Made by a program: the position numbers and the translations under genes
In this document: positions 55,378 to 59,640 of the stretch, in pieces
Numbering within the stretch: position 1 is the first letter of the stretch
Layout: each line of letters starts with the position of its first letter
Notes under the pieces: model-generated
What the model saw: only the letters and a program-made list of their open reading frames with translations
Told to the model about the DNA's origin: nothing
Databases searched by the model: none
Origin: Kutzneria chonburiensis
GTDB lineage: Bacteria; Actinomycetota; Actinomycetes; Mycobacteriales; Pseudonocardiaceae
Assembly: GCF_028622115.1 (NCBI RefSeq)
Contig: NZ_CP097263.1
Location: 8,370,001-8,434,000, forward strand
Direction of reading: 5' to 3'
Length of the DNA stretch: 64,000 nucleotides

Positions 55378-56396
55378 TCAGTGGTTGCCGACGCCGCCGG
55401 AGTTGCCGCCGCCGACCGTGTTGCCGGAACCGCCGTTGCTGTTCCCGTTGCCGCCGTTGTTGCTGTTCCCGATGTTGTTGCCGTTGCCGCCGACGTTGCC
55501 CTGGCCGGCGTTGTTGCCGTTGCCGCCGTTGTGGTTGCCCGGGACCGGCCACCAGTCGCGCGGCTCCAGCAGCGTCCGCTCCGACGGCGAGGCCGTGAAC
55601 GTGTACGCGCGGGGCGAGTGGTTGCCGATGCCACCCGAGTTGCCGCCGCCGACGGTGTTGCCGGAACCGCCGTTGCTGTTCCCGTTGCCGCCGTTGTTGC
55701 TGTTCCCGATGTTGTTGCCGTTGCCGCCGACGTTGCCCTGGCCGGCGTTGTTGCCGCTGCCACCGTTGCTGTTGCCCGGGCCGGTGGCCAGGCTGCGCGC
55801 GCCGAATCCGCCCTCGGGCAGCGGGTAGGCGACGTCCGTGCCGCCGCCGTTGCCGACGCCGCCGGAGTTGCCGCCGCCGACGGTGTTGCCGGAGCCGCCG
55901 TTGCTGTTGCCGTTGCCGCCGTTGTTGGCCGAGCCGATGTTGTTGCCGTTGCCCCCGGTGTTGCCGGAACCGGAGTTGTTGCCGCCGCCGGCGTTGGTGT
56001 TGCCGGGACCGCTCATCGGCGCCACGTCGGCGCCGAGGAAGTCTGCGAAGGGGACCGAGGCCGCCTGGGCGAGCTTGGTCAGGCCGTTGTGCGCCCCGCC
56101 GGCGTTGCCCCCGCCGACCGTGTTGCCCGCACCGCCGTTGCTGTTGCCGTTGCCGCCGTTGTTGTTGTCGCCGATGTTGTTGCCGTTGCCGCCGACATTG
56201 CCCTGACCGGCATTGTTGCCGTTGCCGCCGTTCGTGTTGCCGGTCGGCACCACGTTCTGGCTCAGGACATTAACGTTGGAAACGAGTGGCTGTTGGAAAA
56301 GGGGTTGCCGGCCGGTGCCGCTGCCGCGAATGCCGGTGCCCCGATAACCAGCATTCCGGTCGCGGTCACCGCAACGACAAGTGCCTTCTTGGCCAC
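55378..56396 (-). CDS. Secreted Asn/Gly-rich repeat protein (probable frameshift near start)
   Basis: A GTG at 56394-56396 with AAGGAG before it starts a clear signal peptide (AKKALVVAVTATGMLVIGAPAFA). That frame soon hits a stop, while the repeat frame begins NPLFQQPLVSNVNVLS if one base is added in the run 56297-56304 (AAAAGGGG on the plus strand). The mature protein of about 310 residues is four blocks of about 49 residues, each with GNVGGNGNNIGNSNNGGNGN and SNGGSGNTVGGGNSGG. Unique linkers of 20-40 residues separate them. There are no cysteines. The pattern resembles glycine-rich extended helices or the NxGxGN repeats of PPE proteins. Its role, perhaps surface coat or adhesion, is inferred. 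Confidence 0.75.
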
Positions 56397-56787
56397 GGTC
56401 TCTCCTTTTTGATCTTGTGTTGTGCGCCGCGGCGGCGAGCGGAAGTGCGCCTCCTCCAGCCCGGATCCGCCTCGGCGGGACCGAGGCTAGCCCGGCAAAC
56501 AGCGATCTCACGGCGCGTGCCCTCGTTCGGGTGGCCCCATTTCCGGTAATCGGTATCACCCGCCGGTGGCGATTCACTAGGCCGAATGGGTAAAAGCGCG
56601 GGTGGGAGACTCGGGTGGAATACCCGGCCGGGGGACGTCACCGGACCGTGATCAACTTCCGGCGATTTGCCCTCACTTCGATGCCTGTGGCATACAGGAA
56701 GGTCGCCGATGTCGCCGGGCAGTTGTTTGATTCGGCAACAGTGACGGACATTACTCCGAACAGGTGGAGCCGGCGCGTCGTGGCACG
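56397..56787. other. 391-bp divergent intergenic region
   Basis: The region lies between the repeat protein (-) and folP2 (+) and should hold both promoters. It is less GC-rich at 56540-56590 and 56685-56760. No convincing consensus promoter, hairpin or small gene was identified. Several short open frames cross it without ribosome sites. Confidence 0.5.
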
Positions 56788-57666
56788 ATGACCGTTGTGC
56801 GACCGTTGCGATTCGGGACGAGGCAGGTCGGCGCGGACCGGGCGCTGGTGATGGCCATCGTCAACCGGACGCGCGACTCCTTCTACGACCGTGGCGCCAC
56901 CTTCGCCGAAGAGGCCGCGCTGGCCGCCGTGGACGTGGCGGTGGCCGACGGCGCCGACATCATCGACATCGGCGGCGTACGGGCCGGGTCCCAGGGCGAG
57001 ACCGTGGATGTGGCCGAAGAGGCCCGCCGCGTGGTCCCGTTCGTCGCCACCGTCCGCGAGCGGCATCCGGACGTCGTGATCAGCGTGGACACCTGGCGGC
57101 ACGAGGTCGCGGCGCAGGTCTGCCGCGAGGGCGCGGACCTGATCAACGACACCTGGGCCGGCGCCGACCCGCGACTGGCCGAAGTGGCGGCGGAGCACGG
57201 CGTCGGCATCGTCTGTTCACACACCGGCGGCCTGCCGCCGCGCACCGATCCCTTCCGCCCGCGCTACCGGGACGTGGTGGCCGAGGTCGCCGAGGAGCTG
57301 GCTGCCGCGGCGGAACGCATGGTGGCGCTGGGCGTGCCCGCGGACGGCGTGCTCATCGACCCGACCCACGACTTCGGCAAGAACACCTGGCACGGGCTGG
57401 AACTGCTGCGCCGCTTGGACGAGCTCGTCGGCACCGGTTGGCCGGTGCTGATGGCGCTGTCCAACAAGGACTTCGTCGGCGAGACGCTCGGCGTCAGCCT
57501 GGAGGAGCGGGTCGACGGCACGCTGGCGGCGACCGCCGTCGCGGCCCATGGCGGCGCCCGGGTGTTCCGCGCGCACCAGGTCAAGCAGACCCGGCAGGTG
57601 CTGGACATGGTGGCCAGCATCGCCGGCACCCGCCCGCCGTCGGCCGTGCTGCGGGCCCTGGCCTGA
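56788..57666 (+). CDS. folP2: Dihydropteroate synthase-related protein FolP2
   Basis: A 292-residue pterin-binding TIM-barrel protein. DHPS-like motifs are MAIVNRTRDSFYDRG, DIIDIGGVRAGSQGE, VISVDTWRHEVA, DLINDTWAG and LIDPTHDFGKNT. Next to gpgS as in mycobacteria, where FolP2 (Rv1207) is the second DHPS-like protein and is reported to lack ordinary DHPS activity. So its true reaction is open. ATG at 56788 (MTVVRPLRFG); an upstream in-frame ATG is less likely. TGATG overlap with gpgS. Confidence 0.92.
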   Translation: MTVVRPLRFGTRQVGADRALVMAIVNRTRDSFYDRGATFAEEAALAAVDVAVADGADIIDIGGVRAGSQGETVDVAEEARRVVPFVATVRERHPDVVISVDTWRHEVAAQVCREGADLINDTWAGADPRLAEVAAEHGVGIVCSHTGGLPPRTDPFRPRYRDVVAEVAEELAAAAERMVALGVPADGVLIDPTHDFGKNTWHGLELLRRLDELVGTGWPVLMALSNKDFVGETLGVSLEERVDGTLAATAVAAHGGARVFRAHQVKQTRQVLDMVASIAGTRPPSAVLRALA

Positions 57667-58630
57667 TGCTCGACCGGACCGAGCGGTGGTTCCGCGAGCG
57701 CACCTGGCAGGAACCCGGATGGACGGTGCCGGAACTGGTGCGCGCCAAGGGTGATCGCACCGTCAGCGTGGTGCTGCCGGCGCTGGACGAGGAGGTCACG
57801 GTCGGCGCGGTGGTGGCCGCCGTCCGGCCGCTGCTGGGCTCGCTGGTGGACGAACTGGTGGTGATCGACTCCGGCTCGACCGACCGGACCGTCGAGGTGG
57901 CCCGGGCGGCCGGGGCCAGGGTGGTGCGGCGCGAAGACGTGCTGCCCGAGCTGGAACCGTTACCCGGCAAGGGAGAAGTCCTCTGGCGCTCGCTCGCCGC
58001 GACCATCGGCGATCTGGTCGTCTTCCTCGACTCCGATCTGGTCGACCCCGACCCGGCCTTCGTGCCGGCGCTGCTCGGCCCGCTGCTCACCGCGCCGGGA
58101 GTGCAGCTGGTCAAAGGCTTCTACCGACGGCCGCTGCGGCTGGAGAGCACCGGCGGCGGCCGCGTGACCGAGCTGCTGGCCCGCCCGCTGCTGGCCGCGC
58201 TGCGACCCGAGTTGTCCGGCGTGGTGCAACCGCTCGGCGGTGAATACGCCGCCACGCGCGAACTTCTGGAGTCGGTGCCGTTCGCCGCCGGCTACGGCGT
58301 CGAGATCGGCCTGCTGATCGACACCCACGCGGCGTACGGGCTGGACGGTCTGGCCCAGGTCAACCTGGGCGTGCGCAAGCACCGGAACCGATCACTGCTC
58401 CAGCTCGGCGCGATGTCCAGCCAGATACTCGGCACGGCGCTGGGCCGCTGCGGCACCGACGTCGGCGAGGCCACCGTGCTGACCCAGTTCGTGCAGGTGG
58501 ACGGGGAGTGGCTGCCCGACCCGACCACCGTGTCGACCGCCGACCGGCCGCCGATGCGCACCCTGCGCGGGCGGGTTTCGGACGACCCCGTGCACGGGTG
58601 GCCCCGGACGTGCCACGATCGAAGGCGTGA
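57666..58630 (+). CDS. gpgS: Glucosyl-3-phosphoglycerate synthase (probable frameshift near the end)
   Basis: A GT81-type glycosyltransferase with VVLPALDEEVTVGAVVAAV, VIDSGSTDRT, the DxD motif in VVFLDSDLVDPDP, KGFYRRPL and GGEYAATRELL. It makes glucosyl-3-phosphoglycerate, the first step of methylglucose lipopolysaccharide. As written, the frame runs on past the next gene to 59015. One missing base near the G-rich stretch 58568-58578 would instead end it with TGA at 58628-58630. That overlaps the next GTG (GTGA) and gives about 321 residues, the usual length. The end coordinate given assumes this repair. Confidence 0.88.
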
Positions 58631-58938
58631 CCACCGTACTCATCTACCTCGTCGTGATGGCCGTGGTGGCCGGCGTGGTGTTCCTGGCCGCGTCGCTGGT
58701 CTTCGGCCGCGGCGAGGAGCTGGCCCCGCTGCCGCCGGGCGCGTCGCCCACGCGGCTGCCCGCCGACGCGGTCACCGAGCAGGACGTCCAGGACCTGCGG
58801 TTCCAGCAGGTCTTCCGCGGCTACAAGATGTCCGAGGTCGACTGGGCGCTCGACCGGCTCGGCCGCGAGGTGACCGAGCTGCGGGCCAAGGTGGCCGAGC
58901 TGGAGGAGCGGCTGCCGGCGGAGGAGAACGCGCGGTGA
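58627..58938 (+). CDS. DivIVA-domain protein (Rv1209-like)
   Basis: A 103-residue protein. One membrane segment (VLIYLVVMAVVAGVVFLAASLVF) leads to a DivIVA-type motif FQQVFRGYKMSEVDWALDRL and a short coiled coil (GREVTELRAKVAELEERLP). It matches the small DivIVA-domain gene between gpgS and tagA in mycobacteria. It may recruit partners to curved membrane or poles. GTG start; its TGA overlaps the first 77-bp repeat (GTGA at 58935). Confidence 0.88.
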   Translation: MTTVLIYLVVMAVVAGVVFLAASLVFGRGEELAPLPPGASPTRLPADAVTEQDVQDLRFQQVFRGYKMSEVDWALDRLGREVTELRAKVAELEERLPAEENAR

Positions 58939-59015
58939 CCGAGCTTGCGAGGGAGCCATTGAGTACAGGGACCTGGGTCGCAGACCCGCCGAGCGCCAGC
59001 GAGGTGGGCCTGTGA
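58935..59015 (+). CDS. 26-residue micro-ORF, repeat copy 1
   Basis: Reads VTELAREPLSTGTWVADPPS then ASEVGL and stops at TGA 59013-59015. Start overlaps the DivIVA-like stop and end overlaps the next micro-ORF start, both as GTGA. No known domain. It may be translated only to pass ribosomes on, or may be an accident of the repeat sequence. Confidence 0.4.
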   Translation: MTELAREPLSTGTWVADPPSASEVGL

Positions 59016-59088
59016 CCGAGCTTGCGAGGGAGCCATTGAGTACAGGGACCTGGGTCGCAGACCCGCCGAGCGCCAGCGAGGTGGGCCG
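58935..59088 (+). repeat. 77-bp tandem duplication with coupled micro-ORFs
   Basis: Two units, 58935-59011 and 59012-59088, are identical at 76 of 77 bases (last base T or G). Each starts GTGACCGAGCTTGCGAGG and contains a small hairpin GGGTCGCAGACCC. They are inserted exactly at the GTGA stop/start joint between the DivIVA-like gene and tagA. Because each unit restores a GTGA at its end, the chain of overlaps is kept. The length is not a multiple of three. Confidence 0.95.
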
Positions 59089-59092
59089 GTGA
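59012..59092 (+). CDS. 26-residue micro-ORF, repeat copy 2
   Basis: Same peptide as copy 1 except that the last residue is Arg rather than Leu. The stop TGA (59090-59092) overlaps the GTG of tagA at 59089. Together with copy 1 this makes a string of four genes joined by GTGA overlaps. Confidence 0.4.
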   Translation: MTELAREPLSTGTWVADPPSASEVGR

Positions 59093-59640
59093 CGCAGCCG
59101 GTCCGCTGCCCGTGGGGTGACTCCACAGAGGACTACCAGCGCTATCACGACGAGGAGTGGGGCGTCGAACTGCGCGGTGTGCCCGAGATGTTCGAGCGGC
59201 TCACCCTCGAGGGCTTCCAGTCCGGCCTGTCGTGGATCACGATCCTGCGCAAGCGGGAGGCCTTCCGTGCCGCCTTCGCGCGGTTCGACCCGAAGAAGGT
59301 CGCGGCGTTCGACGAGGCCGACGTGGAGCGGCTGATGGCCGACACCGGCATCGTGCGCAACCGGCAGAAGATCGTCGCGGCGGTCCGCAACGCCGGCGTG
59401 GTGACCGGTCTGGACCAGCCGCTGGACGAGCTGCTCTGGTCGTTCGCGCCGACCGGACGGCGCCGCCGCCCGCGCACCGTGGCCGACGTGCCGGCCGTCA
59501 CGCCCGAGTCGACCGCGATGGCCAAGGCCTTGCGCAAACTCGGCTTCGTCTTCATCGGCCCGACCACGTGCTATGCGCTGATGCAGGCGACCGGCATGGT
59601 CGACGACCACATCGCCGCCTGCTGGCGGGCGAGGCGCTGA
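59089..59640 (+). CDS. tag: DNA-3-methyladenine glycosylase I
   Basis: A 183-residue Tag enzyme. Zinc-binding and base-pocket signs include CPWGDSTEDYQRYHDEEWGV near the start, FQSGLSWITILRKREAFR and FVFIGPTTCYALMQATGMVDDHIAACW at the end (Cys and His ligands). It removes 3-methyladenine from DNA. Same position as tagA (Rv1210) in M. tuberculosis. GTG start overlapping the second micro-ORF. Confidence 0.94.
   Translation: MTQPVRCPWGDSTEDYQRYHDEEWGVELRGVPEMFERLTLEGFQSGLSWITILRKREAFRAAFARFDPKKVAAFDEADVERLMADTGIVRNRQKIVAAVRNAGVVTGLDQPLDELLWSFAPTGRRRRPRTVADVPAVTPESTAMAKALRKLGFVFIGPTTCYALMQATGMVDDHIAACWRARR

Follow-up and report, generated by a model that had tools for sequence, protein, structure and literature searches.

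The presence of two near-identical 77-bp copies exactly between a DivIVA-domain gene and tag in the genome of Kutzneria chonburiensis raises the question as to what such a repeat is and how a gene lying directly behind it might still be translated. The window that we analysed is the whole 64,000-nucleotide stretch of contig NZ_CP097263.1 (positions 8,370,001 to 8,434,000) and coordinates are counted from its first letter. Our reading, in which we have high confidence, is that the array is a tandem pair of a short and mobile actinobacterial repeat of the interspersed kind, MIRU-like and transparent to translation.

The repeat array between the DivIVA-domain gene and tag

The two 77-nt copies (58935-59011 and 59012-59088, at a spacing of 77) have a single mismatch, their last base being T in one and G in the other, and the array they form has the top score (315) among the 19 TRF rows of the window. 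A sequence-only reading had placed both copies precisely at this joint, each running from GTGA to GTGA, and this was borne out. The features concerned are as follows.

57663-58619 (ends approximate), + strand: gpgS, glucosyl-3-phosphoglycerate synthase, 5' of the DivIVA-domain gene (PRK13915, 440 bits; ORF 57438-59015)
58627-58938, + strand: DivIVA-domain gene (TIGR03544, 43.9 bits; PF05103, 29.6 bits)
58935-59011, + strand: repeat unit 1, 77 bp
58935-59015, + strand: micro-ORF 1, 26 codons, stop TGA within GTGA 59012-59015
58935-58956, + strand: hairpin 1 of unit 1, unit positions 1-22, begins with the start codon (family covariation)
58982-59011, + strand: hairpin 2 of unit 1, unit positions 48-77, GAGG in the 3' arm, 7 nt before the next GTG
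59012-59088, + strand: repeat unit 2, 77 bp
59012-59092, + strand: micro-ORF 2, 26 codons, stop TGA within GTGA 59089-59092
59012-59033, + strand: hairpin 1 of unit 2 (family covariation)
59059-59088, + strand: hairpin 2 of unit 2, GAGG 7 nt before the GTG of tag
59089-59640, + strand: tag, DNA-3-methyladenine glycosylase I (TIGR00624, 239.8 bits; PF03352)

The stop codon of the DivIVA-domain gene (TGA, 58936-58938) overlaps the start codon of unit 1 (GTG, 58935-58937) within GTGA, and the right end of the array is the start codon of tag, again within GTGA. Some details of the sequence-only reading had to be amended. It had given both copies an identical 26-residue peptide, which is true of 25 of the 26 residues, the last being L in micro-ORF 1 and R in micro-ORF 2. 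It had correctly seen a gene downstream but had named it tagA, whereas the TIGR00624 match identifies it as tag, and it had described the chain of micro-ORFs rightly but had overlooked two conserved hairpins and a built-in Shine-Dalgarno-like motif. Nothing in Rfam matched 58600-59400 at E values up to 1.

Two further observations concern the surroundings. The gpgS reading frame (57438-59015) meets its first stop only at the stop of unit 1 (59013-59015) and traverses the whole DivIVA-domain gene in a different frame. Four congeners have a gpgS that overlaps the DivIVA-domain gene by GTGA and stops there, and the unstopped frame may reflect either a genuine frameshift or an error of sequencing. 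On the - strand the ORF at 55378-56577 is rich in Asn and Gly and contains many tandem repeats of 9-39 bp.

Dispersal of the repeat family

The unit is not unique to this locus. Within the K. chonburiensis genome (a single 10.41-Mb contig) an 81-base query matched 12 places and a second query 16, and the second query gave 28-51 matches in each of five of the six congeners. The sixth (G005) had no second-query match and no full unit, three matches to hairpin 1 being all that was found there. A pattern built on the conserved part matched at least 120 stretches in many actinobacterial genera, and among the 80 matches listed were Kutzneria, Actinophytocola, Pseudonocardia, Sciscionella, Amycolatopsis, Labedaea, Prauserella, Saccharothrix, Solihabitans, Nocardia, Blastococcus and Micromonospora, as well as genome bins of Sporichthya, Streptosporangiaceae and Acidimicrobiales. 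The reversed pattern had no match in seven Kutzneria genomes. Across the order an exact 17-base match to hairpin 1 was present in 45 of 298 genomes and absent from 253. There was no blastn match of the unit to plasmids and phages at 1e-5 and no exact match to the unit pattern in viral contigs. The earlier suggestion of a small and potentially mobile element agrees with these results, what was found being a dispersed family with tandem arrays at start codons and stop/start joints.

Variants and remnants were also seen. Some Kutzneria units keep hairpin 1 and have their 3' half (hairpin 2) swapped for GACGAAGGAGG, which is a strong Shine-Dalgarno, before the start codon; these have lengths of 66, 68 and 71 (L274, L279, L281, L283 and L285-L288) and by eye their end looks like the end of MIRU292. 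Remnants of hairpin 1 or of the first half of the unit open the frames of host genes with MSELASEP or MTELAR (L276, L277, L278, L284, L289 and L293), the host gene being presumably MiaA at L277 and, as we take it, an ABC ATPase at L284.

Joints with and without the unit

At the DivIVA-tag joint all six congeners are unit-free, the two genes overlapping simply by GTGA or ATGA. The insertion, a gain of 154 bp in this genome, thus looks young. A related two-unit array (75 + 74 bp) lies at the start of tag in another genus (L055), its units being the same as those of Labedaea (L216), and we take it to be an independent event. Elsewhere in the K. chonburiensis genome a unit (L006:1001-1077) lies inside a uracil-DNA-glycosylase-like CDS, presumably of the family-4 type, and shifts its frame; the CDS is uninterrupted in the congeners G001 and G002 and the G003 copy (L311) is partly masked.

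Genomic placement of the arrays

We looked at placement in two sets of arrays. The first consists of 111 non-redundant arrays from loci L001-L153, drawn from the matches listed for the second query together with the own genome. The chain of start codons was intact from first to last in 106 of the 111, in a few cases by in-frame fusion, and led into an ORF of at least 60 codons in 101 and into a shorter one in five (L001, L076, L091, L128 and L129). It was broken in three (L006, L023 and L078), and two arrays had no right joint (L009 and L152). Insertion into TGCGA was considered for L023 and rejected, its right end being rather an altered start codon.

The second set consists of 151 arrays with 300 nt of flank, from 155 in Kutzneria and other genera of which four were dropped, and here ORFs were classed as coding-like by a test of GC by codon position and not by annotation. 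The right end of the array coincided with the start of a coding-like ORF in 137 of the 151 and was not on a start in 14. A stop/start joint, made up of the stop of an upstream coding-like ORF and the downstream start, was occupied by 94 arrays, which accords with the adaptation to operon joints that the sequence-only reading had supposed, but another 43 were on a start codon with no upstream coding-like ORF ending there; five were on a stop only and nine on neither. As a control, 877 other DTGAS sites in the Kutzneria loci included 136 that were start-like and 10 that were both stop and start. Of 126 Kutzneria arrays, 74 have a Shine-Dalgarno-like motif of the host 5' of their left start codon, the frequency at positions drawn at random from these flanks being 228 of 2500. 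The unit ORF runs in the orientation of the genes and overlaps its neighbours by 4 nt at DTGA. By its sequence the unit is dispersed through Kutzneria and its relatives and lies usually just 5' of a DTGA start codon.

Unit length, Shine-Dalgarno-like motif and hairpins

Among 204 distinct units the length was 2 mod 3 in 186, 0 mod 3 in 16 and 1 mod 3 in two, counts which are not independent because the units share ancestry; with the 135 units of 77 bp removed they become 51, 16 and 2, and eight, five and two when distinct lengths are counted. A length of 2 mod 3 places the stop inside the next DTGA. The sequence-only reading had held that a length that is not a multiple of three preserves translational coupling, which describes the usual case, but units of 0 mod 3 exist as well and fuse in frame (L085, L116, L119 and L124 are examples). 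The unit length is thus one that either ends in the DTGA of the next gene (2 mod 3) or fuses in frame with it (0 mod 3). In the 186 units of 2 mod 3 there were no internal stops in the frame of the micro-ORF, whereas the other two frames were interrupted by a stop in 49 and 68 of the 186. Upstream of the right start codon, at 3-11 nt, 200 of the 204 units have a Shine-Dalgarno-like motif, which in 137 of them is GAGG at 7 nt. It is contained in a GCGAGG core common to 203 of the 204, and as the core is also part of hairpin 2 the conservation of the motif is inseparable from that of the hairpin. By its sequence the unit supplies a DTGA start of its own and a stop-free frame, along with a Shine-Dalgarno-like motif whose usual distance from the start that follows is 7 nt.

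Both hairpins were assessed by covariation. For hairpin 1, in 31 distinct sequences, positions 1 and 22 covary (G-C 18, A-U 8, G-U 2, other 3) as do positions 5 and 18 (G-C 19, C-G 9, U-G 1, other 2), and 96.8% of cells were paired in comparison with 87.6% in shuffles, none of 500 shuffles being as high. Hairpin 2 consists of a core CGAGC...GCGAG and a variable stem, and GAGG with the spacer to the next start lies within its 3' arm. A whole-unit alignment gave only 8 pairs with RNAalifold and the hairpin 2 stem was tested later on an alignment of its own (79 distinct sequences thinned from 121), so that its structure was picked after inspection of the data. In this alignment 77.3% of cells were paired against 65.3% in shuffles and the covariation score was 0.322 against 0.135, neither being reached in 500 shuffles. 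Related sequences may beat shuffles without any structure, but against this speak controls in which hairpin 2 was slid along the alignment, which reached at most 43.3% paired and a covariation score of 0.126. Pairs with both sides changed showed no excess for hairpin 2 (7 in comparison with 6.6 in shuffles). Single-sequence folding as RNA gave z-scores between -0.71 and -0.03 for four of five sequences and -2.56 for one, and folding as DNA gave +0.81 and +1.47; as these energies are mostly unremarkable, the case for the hairpins rests on covariation.

Proposed passage of ribosomes through the unit

We propose that ribosomes terminating in the first DTGA, as well as any recruited by a Shine-Dalgarno of the host, would start on the DTG of the unit. 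Translation of the micro-ORF, mostly 25-28 codons long, would then melt hairpin 2 and free its GAGG, and the ribosome would stop in the last DTGA and reinitiate on the downstream gene, so that the gene behind an array is probably still translatable. Insertions at start codons would thereby be nearly neutral and would persist, with insertions elsewhere being mostly purged. The peptide would be a by-product of translation through the unit, and tandem growth could proceed by slippage or by insertion at the unit's own end.

Copy number

Copy number was unequal at 9 of 28 sites common to at least two Kutzneria species, examples being 1, 1, 1 and 5 units, 4 and 2, and 3 and 1. This variation, together with the presence of the Shine-Dalgarno-like motif inside hairpin 2, would be expected if copy number at a joint were an adaptive tuner of expression, with added units altering reinitiation and arrays being kept for that effect; the sequence-only reading had raised such tuning as a possibility for tagA. 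In M. tuberculosis, fpg1 mRNA was generally more abundant in strains whose repeat upstream of the gene was longer, which points the same way (PMC2734929, excerpt). However, copy number was equal at the other 19 shared sites and 102 of 126 Kutzneria arrays consist of a single unit, and we regard tuning as an unlikely reason for the arrays.

At some shared sites different species carry different subfamilies (83-bp and 77-bp), as at L038/L138 and at L107, L135, L085 and L119, as if joints had been reused.

Target choice and the mover

A unit with its own DTGAS lies 5' of another DTGA, and in G006 eight of 13 arrays start with GTGA and are followed by ATGA. When all 155 arrays were pooled, matches between flank and unit looked strong at -2, -1, 0 and +4. 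With shuffling within Kutzneria genomes the base after DTGA (+4) stayed clear (unit and target agree in 73 of 89 arrays against 53.6 expected), the match at the first base D (0) was lost (70 of 89 against 68.2, p 0.27), and those at -2 (60 against 55.3, p 0.009) and -1 (34 against 27.5, p 0.051) were weak. A long target-site duplication was rejected on these figures; an extended match between left flank and unit end occurred at single loci only. As only +4 survives clearly within genomes, what we say about the target is limited to the S base.

Positions 18 and 5 of the unit are complementary in 154 of the 155 first units, and in 127 of the 155 position 18 is also the complement of the target base. 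For position 22 the corresponding figures are 149 with position 1 (152 when G-U pairs are counted) and 126 with the first base of the target. This pattern fits guide-like recognition but, as subfamilies differ in both the unit base and the target base, it is not proof. A bolder and rather doubtful extension is that the element homes to start codons: hairpin 1 would pair its own DTGAS with positions 18-22, the same complementarity would select target starts, a change of guide would re-aim the element, and MIRUs would be a second and independent invention. C-type units would then aim at GTGAC and G-type units at DTGAG. DTGAS and positions 18-22 form standard pairs at three of the five positions, and the within-genome data back the S base of this reading but not the D base.

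A hairpin with such a putative guide recalls known elements. In common with the new unit, REP/BIME and the mini-elements derived from IS200/IS605 are short repeats whose hairpin has a tetranucleotide at its foot, and in the IS200/IS605 and RAYT mechanism a Y1 transposase reads a hairpin and a short guide. The unit could accordingly be a non-autonomous relative of these that a Y1 transposase would move in the form of single-stranded DNA. Its hairpin-foot tetranucleotide can pair in part with a stretch inside the unit (D1-Y22, S5-S18) and no long target duplication was found at L006, both of which are in keeping with such movement. Unlike REP/BIME with RAYT, the unit is placed at start codons, follows gene orientation and has its own reading frame and Shine-Dalgarno-like motif. 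The own genome has no match to the Y1 transposase family PF01797, which sets it apart from RAYT and IS200/IS605 systems, and the six congeners gave a single partial match (33 of 121 positions) even though four of them carry at least 40 unit matches. Movement by a Y1 transposase consequently seems to us quite improbable. A reverse transcriptase was also considered and rejected as the mover, being present in G001, G003 and G006 and having no match in the unit-bearing genomes G000, G002 and G004.

The micro-ORF peptide

The frame of the micro-ORF is open in every one of the 186 units of 2 mod 3, as it would be if the micro-ORF encoded a functional 26-residue protein. The peptide sequence is however not conserved: differences fall almost evenly on codon positions 1, 2 and 3 (1166, 1334 and 1428 in 657 close pairs of 77-bp units, the pairs not being independent), and by this measure purifying selection on the peptide was not found in such pairs. 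The middle of the unit varies freely among subfamilies with pairing maintained, and some units are fused into longer frames or genes. A functional protein is therefore very hard to credit, and the earlier impression that the peptide may be unneeded agrees with these data.

Least credible of all is the view that in this genome the array is an error of assembly or a local tandem duplication that arose by chance, which the near identity of the two copies might suggest but which runs counter to single and tandem copies at many other loci in independent assemblies, including arrays of 2-5 units in other Kutzneria genomes and a tandem triplet (L008) elsewhere in the same genome.

Relation to MIRU and other known systems

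Elements of the design that we favour, a mobile repeat that ribosomes pass through, are already known in mycobacteria as MIRU. MIRUs are in wide use for M. tuberculosis typing, we know of no mover for them, and they are said to lack dyad symmetry (Supply, in 1997, reportedly), unlike the new family with its two covarying hairpins. The likeness lies in a short dispersed unit that is single or in tandem and varies in copy number (here between species), in an ORF that overlaps its neighbours by 4 nt at DTGA in gene orientation, and in apparent spread by insertion at DTGA start codons, as seen from the empty tag joint in all six congeners and from the census of joints. The new unit thus appears to work like a MIRU, which is not to show that it is one.

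The excerpted text of PMC12548453 describes MIRUs as apparently mobile and as inserting at start codons, their ORF being coupled to the gene at -4 nt. In M. tuberculosis 77-bp and 53-bp MIRUs lie at the senX3-regX3 joint, and according to the same excerpt this MIRU is confined to M. leprae and the M. tuberculosis complex (PMC4213456), whereas the new family occurs in many host genera. A 77-nt 5' UTR in M. bovis consists wholly of a class I MIRU and the same gene is leaderless in M. marinum (PMC4128351, excerpt). The MIRU292 unit is 53 bp (PMC7977185, excerpt), and from the unit published there we computed that it is 2 mod 3 and runs from ATGA to ATGA. Comparison of this one MIRU unit with the 204 units gave a mean score of 18.8 and a best score of 30.0, showing no similarity above 20 shuffles (mean 17.3, highest 24.3; best 26.1 on average, highest 37.0). 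Searching titles and abstract openings in the literature, we found no such repeats outside mycobacteria.

In the genus g53, which we took to be Mycobacterium, an exact hairpin-1 match was found in 1 of 34 genomes and a 28-base MIRU292 core in 47 of 248. Among the 14 MIRU292-core matches listed, 12 were no more than 20 nt from a DTGA that leads into an ORF of 156-498 codons. MIRU-type arrays in g53 often have a spacing of 53 but also of 51, 52 and 54 (L305; G540, G406 and G357), so the 2 mod 3 rule looks looser there.

Both kinds of element occur at a joint of the senX3-regX3 type (for MIRU, PMC4213456, excerpt). In three Kutzneria (L015, L086 and L108) one unit, of 77, 77 and 74 bp, lies between histidine kinase and response regulator genes with the stop of the kinase inside the first GTGA of the unit. 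Among solved structures the best relative of the L086 regulator is M. tuberculosis RegX3 (2oqr, E 3.4e-62, the next best having 6.8e-39), and from this match and the gene order we infer that the pair is senX3-regX3 itself.

Regulatory uORFs and leader ORFs are comparable in that the unit is a short ORF whose translation may bring ribosomes to the next gene (PMC12548453, excerpt), and differ in that the new unit is dispersed, repeated and inserted at many different genes, where a leader ORF is conserved at a single gene.

Implications

A structurally defined and widespread family of MIRU design in soil actinomycetes makes mechanism, target choice and the cost of insertion testable. The family would explain the N-terminal MSELASEP and MTELAR extensions of several genes as well as short gaps within operons. 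If the element does home to start codons, the ribosome would pass through wherever it lands.
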